Assembly (NCBI GenBank): GCA_010015805.1
Contig: ML978129.1
Location: 1,178,001-1,242,000, forward strand
DNA length: 64,000 nt
Direction: 5' to 3'
Origin: Rhizodiscina lignyota
Taxonomy: Eukaryota; Ascomycota; Dothideomycetes; Aulographales; Rhizodiscinaceae
This document shows, one piece after another, positions 25,571 through 59,852 of the stretch. Under the pieces are notes generated by a model. It made no database searches and had not been told where the DNA came from. It was given only the letters and a program-made list of their open reading frames with translations. How positions within the stretch are numbered: position 1 is the first letter of the stretch; every line of letters starts with the position of its first letter. The translations under genes were made by a program, and so were the position numbers.

Positions 25571-25648
25571 AAAAGAAGAAATCCCTTACCATTCATCTAG
25601 ACTTATGTCTTTCGAGTCCTCAAATACTAAGTTCCTTCTGTCGCGACA

Positions 25649-27586
25649 ATGAATCCGTTCAGCGGTTACCCTAGCCGTCCCAAATCACCCTACCCTCCGC
25701 CACAATCGCAGCTCAAACCAGATCAGGCCCGGATGGCTGAAAATAGCGATACGGATCCCCGTGGTCCTCTTCATCAGGCTCGACCAAAGCTCACAAAGCG
25801 AATCAGCAGCTTTTCCACCGCCATGAATTATCATCAAGACCAATCTGTATTCTTCAACACCCCGACCGCGACTGAACCATTCGACTATATGCCAAAAGAG
25901 AACATGCACCTCTACGTTGGCCCCACGAACATTATGGCAACTGTGACTACTCTTCATGGAAAGATCATGAGCAAGCTCTGGCAAGGTCTCCCACCAAGTG
26001 ACAATGGATCACTCTGCGAGGTGTTCGAGGCATATCGAGACCTTGTCACGGAGAATGAGAAGCTTCGCGCTGAGCGAGATAGTGAAATCGAAGGTCGTCG
26101 CGCAGCCGAGCAAGCGTTGAATGAGGAAAGAAATATGTGGCTTGAAGAAGAGAAGGACTACAAGGTTGACGTCAAGAGATTGGAAACGATCATTGCTCAC
26201 AGCAACCATGGAATCGAAGGAGTCATTCGTGCTCGCCAACAGAGTGTTGTTCGTCACAAGAAGCGTGGTGAGCTTCCAGAGCCGACACGGTTATCAGAGG
26301 ATGACGGAAGGGAAAACGTGTACGAGTTCCTTACAAGCAGCAAAGCGAAGGACAAGCAAGTGGAGAAGCCAATGGAGAAGCCGGTGGAAAAGCCAACGCC
26401 GCGCAAGACGATGGGTATTGGTATGTCAGTGCACGAGGCTACTGAAAATACTGACGATATTCTCATCGTTTCAGGAGCCTCAGGCCCGGTCCAGCTTACC
26501 AAGAAGCTCCTAAAGAAGAAGTTCTCAACAACAAGCCTCAATGAGATGCAGTCGGTCTCTTTCTCAGATGATGAACAGCCTACTTCGCTCCCAGCGAGCC
26601 CGAAACGTGCAATTGGCGCTCCGTTGAAGGGACACGCGTTGCGACAACGCGCAACTGTTCGAAGCCACGCGAACGATTCCGACGCCGAACTTGAGCTTAA
26701 ACCACCTGCAACGAGCTCGACTGAACCTCGTTCCTCAAGTGATCCGATAGCCGCTCGATCGCGTGGAGGCAACACTCACACGATAGATGTAGGTGCAGGA
26801 CAGCGCGGTACATCGGCTACGTCGGGCATCGACCATGCCATATCCCAATTCAAGAGTTGGATGCCTCGGAAGCACCAAAAGAAGGGGAGCAATGTCGCTG
26901 GTGAGGTAGACAAGAATATTGAGCTGATCCCGCTTGGACAGCAGCCATATCAGAGCCTCGTTGAAGACGGCCCTCAGATGTCCCGCAACGCCGAACGAGA
27001 CCTTCGAAGACCGCTCTCCTTCTACGCTGGTGATGAAGCGAGTTTCCAGCGCCGCATTTCGGCTGGAGGATCCCGTGGGGCCTCGCGTCATCGAAGTCTC
27101 TCTCTGTCAGAAGTCCGATCGCCGCCGAAAGATGACACTCTTGAACTTGTCGACGTCGGTCCGACCACCAGCCCAAGACCTGCGTCAGTTGACACAATCC
27201 GACCTGTGATGCTGACCAAACCTACCGCCGAGAAGCTCGGTGAGTCTCAGCAGAAGCCAGCAAGGGAAGGCTCCCGGTCCAGTGTTTCGACAACGATCCA
27301 TCGACCCAAGAATGAGAGCAAGTCCGCGTCAGCAACCCCTTCATCATCGCAGAGTGAGTCAGGAGACGTGCTTTCCGATAAGACTGGAGGAGTGAAGAGT
27401 CGAGGAGCAAGAACAGAGCCAGCTCGCTCAAATTATGTGGCGCATGGCGGAGAAAATCAGAAGGCAAGCCCGGCAGTTGTGGCGGCAGCAAAGGCCACAG
27501 CTGCATCTACACGTAAGGAGGATGAGAACACGAGCCCAGCGGAGCGGCGCAAGAGAAAGGAGGGCGACAGAAACAAGAAAATGTGA
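25649..27586 (+). CDS. Low-complexity coiled-coil protein of unknown function
   Basis: Single exon, 645 aa, ATG at 25649. Residues about 1-60 are Pro/Ser-rich and basic; about 85-110 form a compact conserved-looking block (MHLYVGPTNIMATVTTLHGK); about 125-190 form a coiled coil (ENEKLRAERDSEIEGRRAAE). Then comes a Lys/Glu/Pro repeat with EKP triplets near 228-243 (MEKPVEKPTPRK). The remaining 400 residues are Ser/Arg/Pro-rich and probably disordered, with many S-P and R-x-x-S motifs suited to phosphorylation, and a basic C-terminus (KRKEGDRNKKM). I do not recognise the family. No transmembrane segment or signal peptide. A cytoskeletal, polarity or scaffold role would be a guess. Codon-scale structure and length strongly support a real gene. 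Confidence 0.75.
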   Translation: MNPFSGYPSRPKSPYPPPQSQLKPDQARMAENSDTDPRGPLHQARPKLTKRISSFSTAMNYHQDQSVFFNTPTATEPFDYMPKENMHLYVGPTNIMATVTTLHGKIMSKLWQGLPPSDNGSLCEVFEAYRDLVTENEKLRAERDSEIEGRRAAEQALNEERNMWLEEEKDYKVDVKRLETIIAHSNHGIEGVIRARQQSVVRHKKRGELPEPTRLSEDDGRENVYEFLTSSKAKDKQVEKPMEKPVEKPTPRKTMGIGMSVHEATENTDDILIVSGASGPVQLTKKLLKKKFSTTSLNEMQSVSFSDDEQPTSLPASPKRAIGAPLKGHALRQRATVRSHANDSDAELELKPPATSSTEPRSSSDPIAARSRGGNTHTIDVGAGQRGTSATSGIDHAISQFKSWMPRKHQKKGSNVAGEVDKNIELIPLGQQPYQSLVEDGPQMSRNAERDLRRPLSFYAGDEASFQRRISAGGSRGASRHRSLSLSEVRSPPKDDTLELVDVGPTTSPRPASVDTIRPVMLTKPTAEKLGESQQKPAREGSRSSVSTTIHRPKNESKSASATPSSSQSESGDVLSDKTGGVKSRGARTEPARSNYVAHGGENQKASPAVVAAAKATAASTRKEDENTSPAERRKRKEGDRNKKM

Positions 27587-30500
27587 AAGAAAATAACGCA
27601 GTGTGAGATGGCAAGGATGTGATACATACGGAGGCTCTTACAGAATGGTTAGCAGAGGACTTGATGTGTGATTTCGGGGTGGAGAATGCGCTGAGCTAGT
27701 GACCGACTTCGGTTTGCCTAAATTGCCAGAATGTGTCCGTAGAAGATGAAGAAGAGTATACAGCGAAGATAGACGTCCAATCGAAGTCAGCCATCGAACC
27801 TAAACAACCCCCCTACATGAGTTTACTGAAGTCTCCTTAAGTTGGAGGGCCAGAAAAGGAGACGTCTAATGGACGGTTAATGCATACTTCCCAACCGTTT
27901 GAGCAAAGCTATTAACCAACCCTCCACTGGACACGATCAAAGAGGCAGTTGGTTTCAAGAGATATCCGTTGAGGGCGCGTTGGCTCACATAACTGGTGCG
28001 CATCGGTGATATGCCAATTCTTGAATGCCATCCCGTCCCCCATTTTCTGCATCAGTCTCATCAGTCGCATACAACACGCTCGATCGCGCCTTATCGATTG
28101 GCTCGGGGATGATGCACGTTTGCGGCCTACGAAGACACTGTGAGCCTGTTCGCTGTGAGCATCCCGAAATTCCAGTGTTGAAGAAGGATGCCGTCGTTGA
28201 CGCTCCTTCCCAATGCAGCGATCGGCACGTTGACCTCCTCTCTCTTTTCTCACCCTACCAACGCCATTTGGAAGCTTCCAATCTCTTCACAAAGTCCTGT
28301 CATCTCTATTTTCGTCCGATGCGATCGCGCACCTGCTTCCAGGGCCCCTCGCGATCGTATTTGCCCCTTATTCGTGCGCCTCGAGCGCGCCTACCAACGC
28401 TGCGAGCGCGAAGACCCTTAGGTCCCAAGCAATGGATAGGATAGCTCCGATATCACAAACGCCGCTGTCTCAAGATGCCTCGTGGAATTCTTGAAACCAT
28501 GGCAGATGCTTGCCAAATCGCATGACCTTGGAATTCCTCGCTCATTTCACAGATTTCTTGCGAAGAACTGGGGCTCGCTGGGCCCACAGAGTGCACCGGC
28601 ACTTCCGACAACCCCAATCCCATTTCCAGAAGCCTGGATCGAAGCGCTAGAAATCTTCCATGTGGCAAAGTGGCTTTCCACCCCTACCAAGTCGTCCAAT
28701 TACCGACGCAATCTCTCACGGGGACACGCGGAACAGGCATGATAGCATCATTTCACCAAAACAACAAAATTTCCGGCCGGCATCGCGATGATTTTCTACC
28801 GACAGACTATCGAATATCGCGCGACGCCCTGTATAGGATCTATTGGCATCGCAGAAGGAAACCGCCCGGCTCGCTAAACTTCTTACAGTCAGCCTCAGGC
28901 TAGCGGTTAAATTTTTCTCTTAGAGCACCGTCTTATGGCACATGGATGCGGCATGGGGGCCTAGACCAGGTGCTTCGCAGCGAGCGGAAGTGTCTCCGGA
29001 GTTGATGCCAGTTGGCATGCAACCTAAGCTTCCCCATCTTCGCGCCACAACCCCAAGTGCACCGCCACGACCACGTTTCGCGGCGTCAGCTTCCGTAGTT
29101 GGCGTCGCTGTTTTGGTATCCCCTTCCCGCAGATCACCCTGGCCTGGAGAGGGTGGTATAGTTCAATTTCCATGTCGTTTCTGATCGCAAATCATCAAAC
29201 GCGAGCAAGCGCGAGAGCGAAGAACGATCTCGATCTCACACACGCCCTGGAGGCGAGAATCTAACGTTCCGAGCGCGTCGCAGGCAGGTCATGGAAGTTG
29301 CTATCGCCAGACGAGTGTGGGACCGAGCTGGCTTCCTGCATCAAGGTGATTTCCACTTTCGCTGCGTTGCACGGTTCTGTTTGCAACATCGCAAACTCGA
29401 ATTTGACTCCGGAATGAATGAGCAGCATTACGATTCATGAAGGACGTTGAAGGCGTCAGACTAGGAATCTGCCAACCAAAGACTCCCTCGTGGGCGCCAG
29501 GAAACGAATGCCCGCCATATGGGCCGTCCTTCATTTCGCTTCTAGAATTTCGAGATCATTCGCTGGTAAAAAAAGACAGGCGCACCCTTGCAATTTCGTG
29601 GGATATGGATGGCATGACCCTCGAAGCGCGTGGGTCACACTCACAGGGCAGGGCAGGCCGTTTCATCGCGGTGGTTGCCGCTCACTCTAAGTGCCTCTGG
29701 CGCGTTGGATGCCCCGTACCCTCCGCGCGCATTGCACACAAGACACGCATGGGAAATGAGGTTGTGCGCCGCAATCCGCCCAAAAGGGCATGACGGATAA
29801 TTTCGCGCATTATGTCATGGCTTTGCTGCAGCGTGCGCCAACAACGATACCGTTGCACGAGAAGGTCGACACACACACATGGATGCTGCTGGTGGGGAGG
29901 CCACAGAGCAGCAGACAGTGCCCAGCGTCGACCAACGGGCCGAGCTGTGGAGGGCGCTGCGGCGGTGTGCGCCTGGCAACCCAGGCCCGAAGAGAGAGGC
30001 GAGAGGCAAGTCGCGAACCATTCTGGTCTAGATTGCGTCGCAGAGGTGACGGATAGCAGAATCCGCGAGCGAAAGCAGCAGCGGGGCAGGGAAGTGTCTG
30101 CACCTAGCACGGAGTCGCATAGATCCAAACTCGGATGACGCGGGCAGAGGGCACTGATGACAGGCCGCTTCCAAGGTGAGAAGTTTAGCCACTACGAGCC
30201 ACAGGGCCGTCGCGTGTGCGACGCCATCGATGGCTGGTACCGAGCGGGTTGGCAAGAGTCCAGCACAGCGTTGCGTGGCTCGCCGCTGATCGCTTCCTGT
30301 CTCGATGCAACGGGTTTGCTCCCGAAAGCGATCGACAAGCTCCGCTCGGCGTGCGCGAGGAGCGCTGCATGCATGTGTGGCTGGTGCGCTGCTGTGAGTG
30401 GTGCAATCGCAGCATCGGCTTCACAGCAACGCTACCGGGCCACAGCTCTCTCACGCTGCCACACTCCTTCTCCCTCCTTCTGCTCTCGACCCATCTCTCG

Positions 30501-42039: not shown

Positions 42040-42978
42040 ATGGGCGATTCCGGCGCCGTGCGGTCGCCAAGTGGGCAGCCTTATACGACAGTGATCCCCT
42101 ACTATCCTCTTAGGTATGTACCCTCGTATCATCTTACCACATGAAACTCACGGAGGTTTTTGACAAGCTCTAGGACGACCTTCAAGTCTTTTACGTCAGT
42201 GGCAGAGATAATCGTCGGCCAGAATGAGACCAAGTTTCTCATACACCGCGAGCTGCTCTCGCACTACTCCACGTTCTTCGCCAACGCACTGAACGGAACC
42301 TTTGCAGAAGGCATCTCCCAGGCAGTCACCCTACGCGAGGAGCGCCTTGACCTCTTCGAGTACTTCGTGTACTGGCTCTACACGCAGCGCCTCGAGGACA
42401 TCTACAAGGACGGCAAGCCGACATACTTCATCCTACTAGAGCTGTATAGCCTCGCGGACAGGCTCGCGATCGAGAAGCTGCGCAACGACGCCATCGACAA
42501 GATCGCAGAGCTCGCCGAGAAGACAAACTCGGTTCTCACGCCCAGCGATACGTACATCCTGTACGAGCAGATCCGCGACAGCTCGCCATTACGCAGACTA
42601 GTCTTGGACCTCTTCACGTTCAAGAAGACGGACAACCTGCTCGCCAACCACCCGGACGAGTGGCACCCGACCTTCCTGCGCGAGCTGGTCGTCAAGCTCA
42701 AGCGCCCTGGCTACCCAGCGATGATGCGCCACGAGCTGCAACCGTTCAAGCCGGCAAACTGGACGATGAGCCAGGCGTGCGATGTCTGCAAAAAGCTGCT
42801 CAAGCCGCAGGCTGCTGGGAGCCAGTGCGTCGCGGAGAAGTGCTCGAGGGTATTCTGCAACTCGTGTGTGGGCAGGGGCGGCGCAGTCTGCTTCGATTGG
42901 CCAACTGAGAGCTTGTGTAAGCCGTGGAAGAAGAATATGTGCTATTATCATGAGCACGTGGATACGGTTCCCTGTTGA
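42040..42978 (+). CDS. BTB/POZ-domain protein with C-terminal Cys-rich segment
   Basis: Two exons: 42040-42113 and 42174-42978; 879 nt, 292 aa. Exon 1 gives MGDSGAVRSPSGQPYTTV and leads into the BTB domain (about residues 27-100): SVAEIIVGQNETKFLIHREL, LSHYSTFFANALNGTF and LFEYFVYWLYTQRL. This is the fungal BTB family in which the domain is followed by a helical region (about 110-215). The C-terminus (about 230-285) has eight or more Cys, CDVC / CVAEKC / FCNSC, suggestive of a zinc-binding module, although not a named finger I recognise. BTB proteins dimerise and may serve as Cul3 adaptors. The GC content of exon 2 is higher than in neighbouring genes. Confidence 0.8.
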
Positions 42979-43532
42979 TGTTGCGCCTAAATGGGGGAAT
43001 TGGGTGGTCTTTTGCTGGCCCGCTTCTGGAGTTCTTTGTGTGAGGTATCTTACATTCCAATGGGACGCAGCAGGCCAACAAAGACTTTGGTCACGCTGGA
43101 ATTATCATATATCTTGGCTACTCTTAGGTAACGGCGTGAGGTACCAAATTCTATGTATCATGGCCTGTTTAGGATAGAACTCATTTGTCGGCTTACAAAG
43201 ACGCGCCTATTGATCCCATCTTTAACCACTTTGCTCCATTCTTGTCCCCGCTTTTCCAACATCGCTCCCTCGGACTTAACCAACGGAAAGATACCGCTAC
43301 GCTACGTACAAGATGTAGTAGCTCGGCGTGACCATCTGATTTGCTACATCAAGGAGTTCGGGACATGGGGTAGCCACTACATGTGAGACTCGTATACCGC
43401 ATAAGTTAAGTGCCGGTGCGCGGCTCAGGTTGATTCCTTTTCTTTTCTGTATATCTTCTCCTGCTGACCTCACAGCAATTGTCTCTCGATAGCACCTCTA
43501 GAATTCCCGCCAGATTCTCGCCTTTAGTCATT
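42979..43532. other. Intergenic, no gene seen
   Basis: 3' flank of the BTB gene and promoter of the next plus-strand gene. Nothing else recognised. Confidence 0.45.
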
Positions 43533-44382
43533 ATGTCGGTGCCAATTACGGAGATCGCGACTCTACCCCTCCACACCCATAAGGGTATGGAGTTCGAATC
43601 GACGGACCCTGCGCAGCGAGGTGTCATCGACAATACCTTCAAAGTGCTCAGCGAGCAGAAGGGCTATCAAGATGCCGCATGGGGTCTAAAGATGGAGGAC
43701 AGTGAATGCTCGATCCTGCTTGTGGGTGAGTAACAGCCACCCATGCACCTTCCGTCCCATCATCCACCATGTGTCCCTTCCATACATGACTTCAATTGTT
43801 CACGATTTCTCGAAATACCAGACTGGGACACAATTGAAGACCACACCGCCTTCACCAAGCGCGACATCTACAAGCCCTTCGCAGAGAAGATCGGCGAGGC
43901 CGTCGACGTGCCCAGCCTCAAGCTCGTGCACTGCACACCGACCAAGCCGATCAAGCCAACCCTCGATGCCCCAGCCACCGAGATTGTATACTGGTATTTC
44001 GCCGCCGACTCGGTGCCCGCGGACTTTGGCGACGTGTGGGACACCTTTGTCAAGTCTGCGGTAGAGCCGGCGGTGGATGCCGGGGCGTGGGGTGAGGCGA
44101 GTGGATGGATTAAAGAGGACGTGGAGTTTAAGAGCTTGCAGGGGGAGACGTTGAAGGGAAAGGCATATGTGTGCTTCATTGGATGGGAGTCGAGGGACCA
44201 TCACTTGCGGTTCAGGGAGACGGAGGCGTTTAAGACGCACATGCCTGAGGTCAGGAAGCATATTCAGGGTATAGAGGTGGTAAGGCTGTTACCGTGAGCT
44301 GTGTTCCTAGGCACCCAACTAACCTGTGTTCTAGTATCACGTTGCCATCGGCAAAGGAGGCTTGAGGACGTGGAAGCCGTAG
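43533..44382 (+). CDS. Dimeric alpha/beta-barrel (ABM-like) protein
   Basis: Three exons: 43533-43725, 43822-44279, 44335-44382; 699 nt, 232 aa. The N-terminus (MSVPITEIATLPL) and two repeated half-domains, each with a beta strand ending in a W-DTIEDH or W-ESRDHH segment (WDTIEDHTAF about residue 66; GWESRDHHLRF about 190), fit the ferredoxin-like dimeric barrel of fungal ABM/DABB proteins, here as two tandem halves in one chain. The last exon supplies YHVAIGKGG and the natural end; reading into the intron would give a different tail. Members include small monooxygenases and stress proteins; no cofactor residue can be assigned. No signal peptide. Confidence 0.75.
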
Positions 44383-45109: not shown

Positions 45110-45717
45110 TTATGATACCATGTCGCCTCCATCTATTAGGTCATCAGCATACAGCCCAATAGTTGCCCGTCAAGAATTACGTACCGGGGACTTCTCCTAC
45201 GGCAACAAATCGAGAGACCATGCTATCGCCATCTTCCTGATATCAGCAGGGCATGTGTAGAGACTTTAGGGTCAGAAACGTACCCGGTGTCTCTCCAACG
45301 GCGACAATGGGAGCCGCTTCTCGGCGGTACAACATTTTGTCCATGTCTGTCATAGTATGAGCAATTCATGGCCCAGTGACTGGAGGAAGCTCCTCGAACA
45401 ACACACCTGGCGACTCTCCAACTGCAACAGCCCGAGATACCATATTGTCTCCATCTGTGTTGCAATTAATTGTTAGAGCTCGTTAAGCAGCGGGAGCGCC
45501 GTTGAGTGCAGACGCACCTGGAGCCTGACCGACTGCTACGATGGGTTCTGCCTCTCGGCGGGAGACCATGTCTGTCTCGCCTAAATGGCTGTCAGTATTT
45601 GTGGAAGGCTTGCACCATACAGGCTGTGAACTGACTTAATGACTCTCCAACGACGACGAATGGTGCCGCTGCTGCAACGGCGAAGAGCGAGGCGAAAGCG
45701 ATTGCGATGAACTTCAT
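45110..45717 (-). CDS. Secreted repeat-peptide precursor, one repeat per exon
   Basis: Six exons: 45636-45717, 45518-45580, 45407-45454, 45284-45346, 45185-45232, 45110-45132; 327 nt, 108 aa. Exon 1 encodes a signal peptide (MKFIAIAFASLFAVAAAAP) and a first APFVVVGES. Exons 2-5 each encode one unit: long units RREAEPIVAVGQAP and RREAAPIVAVGETP (63 nt) alternate with short units SRAVAVGESP and SRFVAVGEVP (48 nt). Units are joined by an acidic spacer ending in MVS or MLY. Exon 6 gives DGGDMVS and stops. All introns (51-63 bp) are phase 1, so every internal exon can be skipped or added without a frame change. Arg-Arg sites suggest Kex2 cleavage, and the following EA-EP / EA-AP dipeptides suggest dipeptidyl-aminopeptidase trimming. 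No Cys or Trp. Family unknown to me; the nearest concept is Kex2-processed repeat precursors (pheromones, RiPPs). Confidence 0.8.
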
Positions 45718-46397: not shown

Positions 46398-46971
46398 TTA
46401 TTGATCCTTTGCCATCAAGCGATCGACGAATCTCTCGTGCGTGCCTTTCCAATTTGCTTCGCATTTGCCTTTAACCACACCTACGAGGAGCCTCGTACAC
46501 GTTATTGACGTATCCTCCACCAAGCAGAGCTTGTGCTCCCCCTCCCCGTCTGTTTCGAGCGCATCCTCGATCAGCCATTTAGATCGTTGGTAGATACCCA
46601 AAGGAGCACGTATAATCCAGTCACATCCGTTTTCAACGTCTGTCATTTCTGAGTTGAAGGACACAGTTGAGTCCCAGAGGCCCTTTGGCAACGTGTGCAT
46701 GATGTCCGTGACCTGATAATACTTGGTTGCGGGATTTGCGTCCGCCGGAGCCTCTGCGACAGTATAGTGTGATAGCTCAGGATCGAGGTGGATGAGAAAG
46801 TCATGATCGCGAAGGAGAGCAATCGCTTGCTCGCGAGTGATAGAAGTAGGCAGAGGAGTGCGATGGACGAGATTGGCAGTTGAGTTGAGGACTGTAAGTG
46901 TTAGCCGAGAGCTGCCCGTCTGTCCATCTGTCCACCGGTTTGTCGAGGAGAATTTACGTACTTGACACCAT
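46398..46971 (-). CDS. DUF7053-type fungal protein
   Basis: Two exons: 46962-46971 (Met-Val-Ser plus one base) and 46398-46891; 504 nt, 167 aa. The protein begins MVSILNSTANLVHRTPLPTS and contains AIALLRDHDFLIHLDPELSHY, YYQVTDIMHTLPKGLWDSTV and ENGCDWIIRAPLGIYQRSKW, the conserved text of a widespread filamentous-fungal family resembling SRPBCC/START-like lipid-binding folds. Function is unknown. A short C-terminal helix with ANWKGTHERFVDRLM closes it. No signal peptide. Confidence 0.75.
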
Positions 46972-47635
46972 GGTTCAATATCTACAGTTCTTTCCCTAGA
47001 TCGAAGAGTGTCTTGATATGTTAGTCTGATAGCCACAACTGGTCACACGATATAGATGTCACTCATGGCCTGAAACGCGTTTCATTTGGCGCATGGCTAA
47101 AGTGCTGACGCGGCATTTGGAATTGTGCGTCTCTGCCTGACGGGAGGCACAGTTACATGGAAACAAAACCAACAGGGCGGACAAGAAACGTTGACTTTAG
47201 TGAAGAATGAGAGAATCGAGAGAGGCGCCGGGAGAAAGCCCAATTGACGAGGACGCCGTGGGATAATAGCGCCCTTTTAGACAGAATATTTGCGTCTAAA
47301 CTTATCGAAATATACCGCCACAGGCCAAAGTGAATCCAGGTAGACAGGACTAAAGGAGCTTAATCTGCTCCGTGGACCCTCATCAGTTAGGGGAAATGAC
47401 AGAACAATTCCAAGTTATTGCCGTTATAGTACTTTAGTGGAGTTCCCGAACGGGTTTAATTGGACAAGCCACTCACGTGACAGCGGGACGGGTTCGCGTC
47501 AAAAACCAAAGTGCGCTAGCGTCTTGTAACCTATCATTTGCGACCTCCTCCTTCCAACCCTCTCCTTTCAAACGCACACTTGAGCCTTTCGCATACCAGA
47601 CACGCCATTGCGACTGCACAGCAGATAGAATCAGA
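46972..47635. other. Divergent promoter region (DUF7053-type gene and RAD7)
   Basis: No gene seen. It contains the RAD7 leader near 47530-47635. Confidence 0.45.
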
Positions 47636-56862: not shown

Positions 56863-59852
56863 TCAAGCCCGAACCTCGCAGAGCCTCATGCTCAAAAGCT
56901 CCTCCGCCGTCGGCCTTCTCTCGTGGTCAAGATCGAACGTGCGCTGCAAGAACTCCTGCACCATATCGCTCGCGCCGTCAGGGATCGTGGGACTCGCATC
57001 GCCGCTGCCACCAATCTTGAAGATTGCCTGCAGCTGCGTGCAGTTGGGATGGGGATGATGGCCTGTGAACATCTCGACAATCAGGCATCCTAATGACCAG
57101 ATATCTGCCTTGCGAGTGTATGCCGTTTGCTTGACGACCTCGGGTGCCATCCAGAACACACTGCCCTGCAGCGACACGCGTGGGCCACCGGCCTTGCCAC
57201 GTGCAGAGCCGCTAGCAGAGAGGAGAGTGGATGCGTCGACGCGCTTAGAAATACCGAAGTCTGAAATTTTGACGGCGCCCTTGTTGTCGACCAAGATGTT
57301 GGCGCCCTTAATGTCACGGTGAATGATGTCTCGAGAATGAAGGTAGTTGAGGCCGTTGAGAATCTGACGGACAAAGTTGGCGATGAGACCCTCGCCGAGT
57401 GGGCCGTAGTTAACCAGCATGGTGGCGACAGAGCCACCAGGTACGTATTCGAGGAAAATATTCAAGTGAGTGTCGTCGCTGTTCGAGCCAAGGTACTGTA
57501 CGATGTTCGGATGCTTGAGGTCTCGCAGGAGGCCGATCTCATGCTTGAGCGCCTCGACCATGTTGTTCTTCTTCGCGTCCAGCTGCGTGCCCGTGCTCGA
57601 CGGCATTTCGACCTGCTTGACCGCCATGAGTTCACCAGTGACAGCGTGTAATGCCAAATACACGCTGCCGAAACTACCTTGGCCGATCAAAGCACCTTTC
57701 ATGTACTTGACATTCTCCCAGCTGTCCTGCTCGAGATACTCGCTGAGCTCCTCGTCGCTCTCCTCGCTATCTTCCTGCACCATCTGGCTTAGGCGCTTGT
57801 TGAGGCTGTCACCATTCTCGGTGCCAATGGCACTGCCAGAGCCAAGACTCGATGCCGCCGCAGAGGAGCCGCCATCGTCATAGTAAGACTGCATCGTAGT
57901 GTTGCCATCGGGGTCGGTGATGGAAATGTCGTTCTCGCCAAAGGAAACATATGACTTGCGATTGGGCTCGAGTGGTGACTCCTCATCTAAAGGTTCGAGG
58001 ACTGAGGATGCAACGCTATCTCTATAGCCTGCACCTGCTGGAGCGCCCAAGCGCATGACTGACAGTGGCCTGATGCCACGCTGCTGACCATTATTAAGCC
58101 AAGCATCTGAAATGGCTGGCAATGGTGGAGCATCTCTTAAGCTGCTTGCGAAGGAGATGTTGCTGGCAGTACTCATGCGGCTTGTTGCTCGGCTTATGCG
58201 GCGTGATCTTCGTATCGACATGCGAACAGTCTTGTCAATCTCGTCCTTCTCGAAATCAGGGAAATATGTCGACAGGTCGCTAGCAATAAGTTCCGATGGC
58301 GGTCGGCCACCGTGGAGCTCCTTGATTCTTCTAATTCGCGCGCTGGCCGTCGTTCTCGAGCTATCAGCACGTTCGAGATCCTGCTCCGCCATGTTGATGT
58401 GTTTTTCTCTCTCTTTCGCCGAGGCAGGAGAGAGAGGGTATGAGACAGCAGCCAAGGATTCTCCAGTAATTTTCTCTATCTTGAGCTGCGATCGATTGGA
58501 AACTGGGACAAACACTTGTTGTGTCTGTTGCAACTGCTGCTGGCTGGCTATGTTTGCTGCTTGCCGTAACTGATCCTCCTCTGGTTCGCCGGTGTGGATC
58601 TTCCTGAAGATGAGTCTTCCCCTCTCAAGTCCTTGGCGGTTGTTGATGATTCGCATAAGCTCTATGTCAGAAAGCTTCCTGCACAGAACCGGATTGGGGT
58701 CAACGCCATCGAGCACGTAGAAGCAGTAGTTCTTCACATGTGCTTCGTTCAACGAACCCTTCCTTAACGTCTTCAAGATCACGTCCTCGGCAGTCTTGCA
58801 TCCTTCAACACTGAGCACGGCGGTGCGTGCGTTGTCGGGATAGATGACTCTGATGAGGGCCTTGTCTGTGGGAAGAACCATACTGTTTGTCATGGCGTCC
58901 TGACTGGGGCTGCTCCGTACGTGCGTGGCAAAGCGAGCTGTCTGCGGCGTCTCTGCAGGCGTCACTGGGGTTCTGCCACTGCTGTTGGCACTCCGGGGAA
59001 TGGCACCGTAGTGTTCTCGTTTGGGGCTTGGTTGACCGTGGTAACGACTGCTTTTGGTCTCTTCAATGAACGGTGATGATGGCCTTGAGGATGATTTTGC
59101 GGGTAAGTGAGCGAGAGTGGAAGCGTATGAGAGGTCGGAGCCGGCTATTTGTCTTGACATGCGTTTTTCGGAGCGAGCAGAGCGAGCAGAAACGACACCA
59201 CGAGGTGAAGCGGATGATGGAGGAGTGAACAATGGATTGACATCAAGCAAAGCAAGAGATTCCTGTATTCATTGTGAGTAAGTTTGGCATCGAAGAAGAG
59301 CTCGTTATACCTACCCTATTGCTCTTCTGCAACGACGCCTTCTTGTACTGCTTGTTGCGAAGGATCTTGACCTCGGTGCTGATCCGAAGACGGTGGCCCA
59401 TCTTCTTGATGCCCATATCTTTGAGATGTGTTGCGTCCATCTCCATGAGGTTTTCGCCATTAATATTATTGCCTACAATGCGTCAATAGGGTCCGTGCAA
59501 CAATAGCACAAGACAACAGGAGACGTACGCTTGAAAAGCTCGACATATTGGGCGCAGCCTTCTATGCCACGCAACCATTCGCAAACAGTCTCCTCACCCC
59601 AGTTTCTAAGACAGGTGTTAGCTGTTGAGTGATCCAACGAAAACAGGTAAGCACGTACCTGATCGAGTCCGGAGCTCCATCGAAGTGCTCGGAAAACTCA
59701 GACTCGGTAGGGCTCGCGAAGAAGCCATTGTTTTCCTTTCCGGAGCTCGAGTGTATTCGATAATTAGCGACGTTCGAATACTGTGCGGACGAGGGTTGCG
59801 TGGAGGCCGAGTGAGGCGCGGGATATGGTGTTTTGCTAGCCAACATGGCCAT
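56863..59852 (-). CDS. STE11: MAP kinase kinase kinase Ste11
   Basis: Four exons: 59659-59852, 59529-59605, 59315-59472, 56863-59262; 2829 nt, 942 aa. MAMLASKTPYPAP starts the protein. A SAM domain spans exons 2-3 (about residues 66-135; NWGEETVCEWLRGIEGCAQY, LMEMDATHLKDMGI). A Ras-association-like domain (about 275-375; ALIRVIYPDNARTAVLSVEG) and a Ser-rich regulatory linker with a basic RRSRRISRATSRM patch (about 495) follow. The kinase domain is about 660-935: glycine loop GQGSFGSVY, VAIK-like MAVKQVE, HRDIKGANIL, DFGISK, APEVV. Ste11 activates the MEKs of the pheromone/filamentation and osmostress cascades. All catalytic motifs are present. Confidence 0.93.

Follow-up and report, generated by a model that had tools for sequence, protein, structure and literature searches.

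Gene model and surroundings

The window analyzed here (the whole 64,000-nt stretch of DNA, from the fungus Rhizodiscina lignyota) carries on its minus strand, from position 45717 to 45110, a 327-nt coding sequence for a 108-residue protein, obtained by joining six exons across five GT..AG introns. The protein has a signal-peptide-like start and five copies of a repeat unit, and the gene is laid out as follows.

Exon 1 (82 nt), 45636..45717, minus strand: start codon, signal-peptide-like MKFIAIAFASLFAVAAA, AP, and the N-half of unit 1 (FVVVGESL)
Intron 1 (55 nt), 45581..45635, minus strand: GTCAGT..CTGAC..TTAG
Exon 2 (63 nt), 45518..45580, minus strand: C-half of unit 1 (SETDMVS), site RR-EAEP, N-half of unit 2 (IVAVGQAP)
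Intron 2 (63 nt), 45455..45517, minus strand: GTGCGT..CTAAC..ACAG
Exon 3 (48 nt), 45407..45454, minus strand: C-half of unit 2 (DGDNMVS), single R, N-half of unit 3 (AVAVGESP)
Intron 3 (60 nt), 45347..45406, minus strand: GTGTGT..ACAG, without a clear CTRAY branch site
Exon 4 (63 nt), 45284..45346, minus strand: C-half of unit 3 (DMDKMLY), site RR-EAAP, N-half of unit 4 (IVAVGETP)
Intron 4 (51 nt), 45233..45283, minus strand: GTACGT..CTGAT..CAGGAAG, with the AAG acceptor assumed
Exon 5 (48 nt), 45185..45232, minus strand: C-half of unit 4 (DGDSMVS), single R, N-half of unit 5 (FVAVGEVP)
Intron 5 (52 nt), 45133..45184, minus strand: GTACGT..CTGAT..ATAG
Exon 6 (23 nt), 45110..45132, minus strand: C-half of unit 5 (DGGDMVS), closed by a TAA stop at the point where R follows the other units

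The original prediction placed a spliced, 108-residue minus-strand protein at this locus, and re-splicing reproduces its coordinates and sequence exactly. In the spliced model all five introns are in phase 1, the acceptors of introns 1 to 5 are TAG, CAG, CAG, AAG, and TAG, respectively, and CTRAY-like branch sites are present in introns 1, 2, 4, and 5, with a weak branch region in intron 3. According to the reading-frame list, each intron contains an in-frame stop if retained. From these features we infer that the transcript is spliced as modeled. The weak point of the model is the acceptor of intron 4, an AAG ending at 45233 that lies past a nearer CAG 4 nt upstream; splicing at this CAG would end the protein early (VAVGETPGRWR-stop). 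An antisense gene in the PTAT shadow frame was considered and rejected: on the plus strand all five introns are bounded by CT..AC, so that the antisense frame could not be spliced there. The N-terminus is hydrophobic, with a mean Kyte-Doolittle value of 2.44 over residues 3 to 18 (calculated directly from the sequence), and includes an A-x-A-type site. This is in line with the signal peptide proposed earlier, and the precursor is probably secreted.

The repeat is not a product of chance. In a six-frame reading of the window, the pattern V[AV]VG[EQ]x[PL] occurs five times, always at this locus, compared to a mean of 0.03 matches and a maximum of one in 100 Markov-simulated windows. In a blind scan of the window for 4-residue peptides that are made of three or more different residues, contain no stop, and repeat at least four times within 700 bases, VAVG is the only peptide recurring four times, besides its antisense shadow PTAT. 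On both results, a chance origin can be set aside. Genome-wide, V[AV]VG[EQ]xP has 11 matches (20 for the reversed-pattern control), four at the locus and seven elsewhere; single-frame reading of 1.2 kb around the latter revealed no repeat or precursor context.

The gene seems to stand alone in the genome searched (33.4 Mb in 29 contigs, with the locus on contig C9). A query with the unit protein scored one candidate, the locus itself; the VAVGE pattern uncovered no paralogue, and the two DGDxMVS matches in the genome are both at the locus (control, 0). No relative was confirmed by tblastn in viral contigs (6 pattern matches) or prokaryote contigs (28 pattern matches), as expected for a fungal gene. 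The best Pfam match, DUF3931, falls below the cutoff (E 0.0029; 18 bits versus 25), and the best PDB match has an E value of 1.4. The unit strings have no relevant match in the open-access literature searched, nor in the main text of Le Marquer 2019 or Umemura 2020.

One flank of the gene, at 42145-44294, is occupied by plus-strand open reading frames (ORFs), of which the first has a BTB domain. On the other, upstream of the peptide gene and on the same strand, is a DUF7053 gene (46398-47042, minus), followed by rhp7-like, RFC3/5-like, and zinc-dehydrogenase ORFs. No tailoring-enzyme cluster was found in the 20 ORFs scanned among the 55 in the window of at least 150 amino acids. The original prediction also noted the lack of DUF3328/UstY neighbors, and indeed none of the 76 UstYa matches listed for the genome lies on contig C9.

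Several features elsewhere are recorded here for completeness. Some of the UstYa (DUF3328) matches are grouped tightly, e.g., at C3:338-342 kb, C24:104-107 kb, and C2:1453-1461 kb, which suggests several RiPP-type clusters in the genome. A Ste11/Byr2-like MAPKKK with a Ras-binding domain and a kinase domain is encoded at 56866-59268 of the window (minus strand), some 11 kb away from the peptide gene; the proximity of a pheromone-pathway-type kinase is probably a coincidence. A 651-codon open frame at 25631-27583 (plus strand) has no Pfam match at E 0.001 and overlaps the AT-skewed stretch 26001-28000 (skew 0.213) as well as a 12-nt tandem array (26350-26396).

Repeat units and probable selective constraint

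The repeat unit is 15 residues long, with the outline [FIA]V[AV]VG[EQ]xP-Dxxx-MVS, and the five copies align without gaps (units 1 to 5 in order: FVVVGESLSETDMVS, IVAVGQAPDGDNMVS, AVAVGESPDMDKMLY, IVAVGETPDGDSMVS, and FVAVGEVPDGGDMVS). Five copies of a 7-residue V-x-V-G-(E/Q)-x-(P/L) peptide, separated by acidic spacers and basic sites, had been proposed. The count of five stands, whereas the length does not, and the supposed acidic spacer, DGDxMVS, belongs to the 15-residue unit itself. Basic sites do occur between the copies, but dibasic ones make up only two of the four separators (RREAEP after unit 1 and RREAAP after unit 3); the other two, after units 2 and 4, are a single R, and unit 5 ends at the stop. 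Both dibasic sites fall exactly at unit borders and are followed by EAEP or EAAP. Unit 1 is the most divergent copy, with L in place of P and S in place of D. The 108-residue protein contains no Cys, Trp, or PYG, and there is one Tyr among the units, in unit 3.

In all five units an intron cuts the sequence after the first base of the codon for residue 9. Because every unit is split in this way, exons 2 to 5 each encode the last part of one peptide, a cleavage site, and the first part of the peptide that follows. No precedent for an exon-per-repeat arrangement or for splicing of such precursors was found in a narrow search of the open-access literature, which brought up a paper on the Paracoccidioides alpha-pheromone (PMC3464258); the words "intron" and "exon" are absent from the main text of Le Marquer 2019 and Umemura 2020, and the passages of PMC8329847 and PMC12048977 that were searched contain no unit or intron precedent. 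The unusual feature of the locus is the intron inside every peptide, together with the mixture of cleavage sites.

The units resemble each other at the DNA level (z = 2.5 to 9.9 over 10 pairs), whereas the introns, with their ends trimmed, are not clearly alike (z = -0.6 to 2.4 over 10 pairs, with 2.0 and 2.4 as the top two values). Differences between units are concentrated at third codon positions (46, 42, and 95 at positions 1, 2, and 3, out of 150 each). Pooled over all 15 columns, pS is 0.83 and pN is 0.28; the corresponding values are 0.67 and 0.07 for the VAVGE columns, 0.83 and 0.12 for the MVS columns, and 0.98 and 0.47 for the seven loose columns, all of these figures being biased towards constraint because the units were chosen by amino acid similarity. 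The mostly synonymous differences suggest purifying selection on the peptide, and the pattern would fit an old tandem exon duplication followed by such selection.

Comparison with alpha-pheromone precursors and KEPs

Ascomycete alpha-pheromone precursors, including MFalpha1 of S. cerevisiae, resemble the locus in their signal-peptide-like start, their several near-identical short peptides, and their R or RR sites followed by E-A and x-P dipeptides. The locus protein differs in that it has no pro-region and no Trp or Cys in its core; alpha-pheromone cores are of the two-cysteine C-x3-G-Q-x-C type or PYG[LM]P[IV]G, and neither occurs in the locus protein. The Ste13 signature (a Kex2 site followed by XA/XP) is present as RR-EA-EP and RR-EA-AP at two of the four separators and is lacking at the two that are a single R. 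The original prediction of a pheromone-like repeat precursor without a Trp/Cys core is thus borne out, except that this lack does not by itself separate the locus from alpha-pheromones, since the core in Pleosporales is PYG[LM]P[IV]G (PMC6339444).

The fungus has an alpha-pheromone precursor of its own, at G000:C6:1851048-1851977, in a single open frame of 309 codons, unlike the six-exon peptide gene with its intron in every unit. It encodes five CHLVGQPC cores (VVHFCHLVGQPCLK type) and three divergent C-x3-G-x2-C copies towards the ends, and it was located with a query based on a consensus, through two weak overlapping matches (E 0.139 and 0.188). The string CHLVGQPC was not found in the open-access literature searched. 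Among genome-wide patterns, C-x3-G-Q-x-C has 198 matches (control, 73); among the 100 listed, the match at C6:1851396 lies in this precursor, and 20 stretches around 19 other chosen places contain no pheromone precursor. W-C-x3-G-Q-x-C and the PYG-type pattern each have one match in the genome (control, 1 for each), in neither case a precursor. As this separate five-copy precursor exists, the locus is not the conventional alpha-pheromone gene, and its reading as a canonical alpha-pheromone was rejected.

The cleavage sites of the two genes are nonetheless comparable: the dibasic sites of the alpha-pheromone precursor include SRREATANPDP and YRRAADPEP, to be set beside SRREAEP and YRREAAP at the locus. 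K-A-R or K-V-R comes next after four of the five CHLVGQPC cores, and KKKR after the fifth, so that a mixture of mono- and dibasic sites fits this fungus; the single-R sites at the locus (VSR-A and VSR-F), however, have no upstream Lys, unlike those of the pheromone precursor. As for the machinery, the genome contains one match to a Kex2-type P-domain, one to the DPP-IV N domain (a candidate for the Golgi Ste13 type), and one STE2 locus with two adjacent matches. STE2, together with the spliced genes and the alpha-pheromone, points to a filamentous ascomycete.

KEPs (Kex2-processed repeat proteins) are, like the predicted product of the locus, secreted repeat precursors with units bounded by Kex2-type sites. 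They are very diverse, 2,560 of the 7,878 in Umemura's survey having no homologues (PMC7329392), so that a new core alone would be ordinary. The published rules nevertheless pass over this gene. Le Marquer 2019 asked for a signal peptide and no membrane span, for which the locus offers its hydrophobic N-terminus with the A-x-A-type site. It required at least four fragments from cutting at KR/RR, and the two RR sites here give three. That survey also required at least three similar fragments, the C-terminal one being first set aside, with motifs making up at least 15% of the protein; by inspection, all three fragments carry a unit and 75 of the 108 residues belong to units, although two fragments are left once the C-terminal one is set aside. 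In Umemura 2020 the threshold was three or more tandem repeats, each 8 amino acids or longer, between dibasic sites; the locus has strictly one fragment so placed, or three if both ends count. By its sequence, the precursor would work like an alpha-pheromone-type KEP, yet it is not a KEP by the published cutoffs.

Proposed maturation and function

We consider it probable that this six-exon gene encodes a secreted prepropeptide like those of alpha-pheromones, from which Kex2/Kex1/Ste13-type processing would release linear, unmodified signal peptides other than the conventional mating pheromone. After removal of the signal peptide, a Kex2-type protease would cut behind RR, and perhaps behind the single R as well. 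The basic residues would be trimmed by a putative Kex1-type carboxypeptidase, while a Ste13-type dipeptidyl aminopeptidase would strip the E-A and x-P dipeptides, along with the A-P behind the signal peptide. Cutting at both types of site would yield five linear 15-mers. If only RR is cut (there is no KK in the protein), the products would be a first fragment with one unit, giving one 15-mer, and two longer ones of 31 residues each once EAEP or EAAP is trimmed, as counted by hand (IVAVGQAPDGDNMVSRAVAVGESPDMDKMLY and IVAVGETPDGDSMVSRFVAVGEVPDGGDMVS). Cutting at the single R is possible by analogy with mushroom KEPs expressed in Pichia, several products of which seemingly arose from cleavage after a single Arg (PMC9769878). 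This proposal builds on an internally consistent gene model, the repeat and its sites, the Kex2, DPP-IV, and STE2 family matches, and the separate alpha-pheromone gene; cleavage and function of the precursor are predicted from these. Against it are the presence of only two dibasic sites, the missing Lys ahead of the single-R sites, the divergence of unit 1, the nearer CAG in intron 4, and the weak branch region of intron 3.

The released peptides are most likely extracellular signals. A signaling role is preferred on account of the Ste13 signature, which in Ascomycota is said to be reserved, as a rule, for alpha-type pheromones (PMC6339444); the signature is no proof of a pheromone, as KEPs of unknown role in Basidiomycota and Rhizophagus carry it as well (PMC6339444). 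The same signature argues against a structural role, in which the peptides, once cut, would be valine-rich, amyloid-like repellents assembling at the hyphal surface, like the peptides from Rep1 of Ustilago maydis. Rep1 (compared here by description) gives Kex2-released repeat peptides, possibly beta-prone, and we would expect the VAV strand and GExPDGD turn of the units to be beta-prone too. Peptides derived from Rep1 form amyloid-like fibrils (PMC9769878). The locus differs from Rep1 in its Ste13-like sites, five copies, and short units. The low copy number and the lack of a second gene in the genome searches also speak against a structural role, which we regard as unlikely. It is distinctly unlikely that the secreted protein functions in its uncut form, as a small extracellular or wall protein of repetitive sequence with incidental RR motifs: the scarcity of dibasic sites (two in 108 residues) and the single R in two of the four separators would suit this reading, but both dibasic sites lie exactly between units and precede EAEP or EAAP, unit 5 stops where the other units meet R, and SRR-EA and YRR-..P sites recur in the pheromone precursor of the same fungus.

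Two further alternatives bear on the nature of the product. That the peptides are a second mating pheromone acting on Ste2, beside the two-cysteine one, seems very unlikely to us; the Ste13-like signature and the STE2 gene would allow it, and the alpha-pheromone core can change wholly, as in Pleosporales (PMC6339444), but a conventional five-copy CHLVGQPC precursor is encoded elsewhere in the genome and no evident core is common to the CHLVGQPC peptide and the 15-mers. A dikaritin-type RiPP precursor, its core cyclized by UstYa enzymes, is extremely unlikely. Dikaritins such as ustiloxin and phomopsin share the signal peptide and Kex2 repeat architecture, and the genome is rich in UstYa domains (at least 76 exon-level matches, a lower bound). 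However, no UstYa match lies on the contig among those listed or in the 20 window ORFs scanned, and the units have no Trp or Cys, a single Tyr, and nothing resembling the EDYXI-like dikaritin core (PMC6339444). The missing neighbor is in itself common, since 22% of KEP genes had a DUF3328 neighbor in Umemura's survey (PMC7329392).

Returning to secreted signal peptides, the gene structure invites a bolder idea, which we hold to be quite improbable: a second, non-mating peptide-signal system on the alpha-pheromone maturation line, its output set by splicing. Skipping any of exons 2 to 5, which are symmetric (phase 1-1), would keep the frame, resulting in a hybrid peptide or a lost Kex2 site; retention of any one of the five introns would end the protein after the N-half of the affected unit. 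If so, exon choice could tune the number and identity of the peptides made.

The locus is of interest as a likely secreted peptide precursor passed over by the rules of both KEP surveys. Gene predictors may also miss mini-exons of 23 to 82 nt. If the gene is real, surveys built on annotated proteins and counts of dibasic sites would under-count such peptides, and the fungus would have a candidate signal that takes the maturation route of its own mating pheromone but carries a different message.
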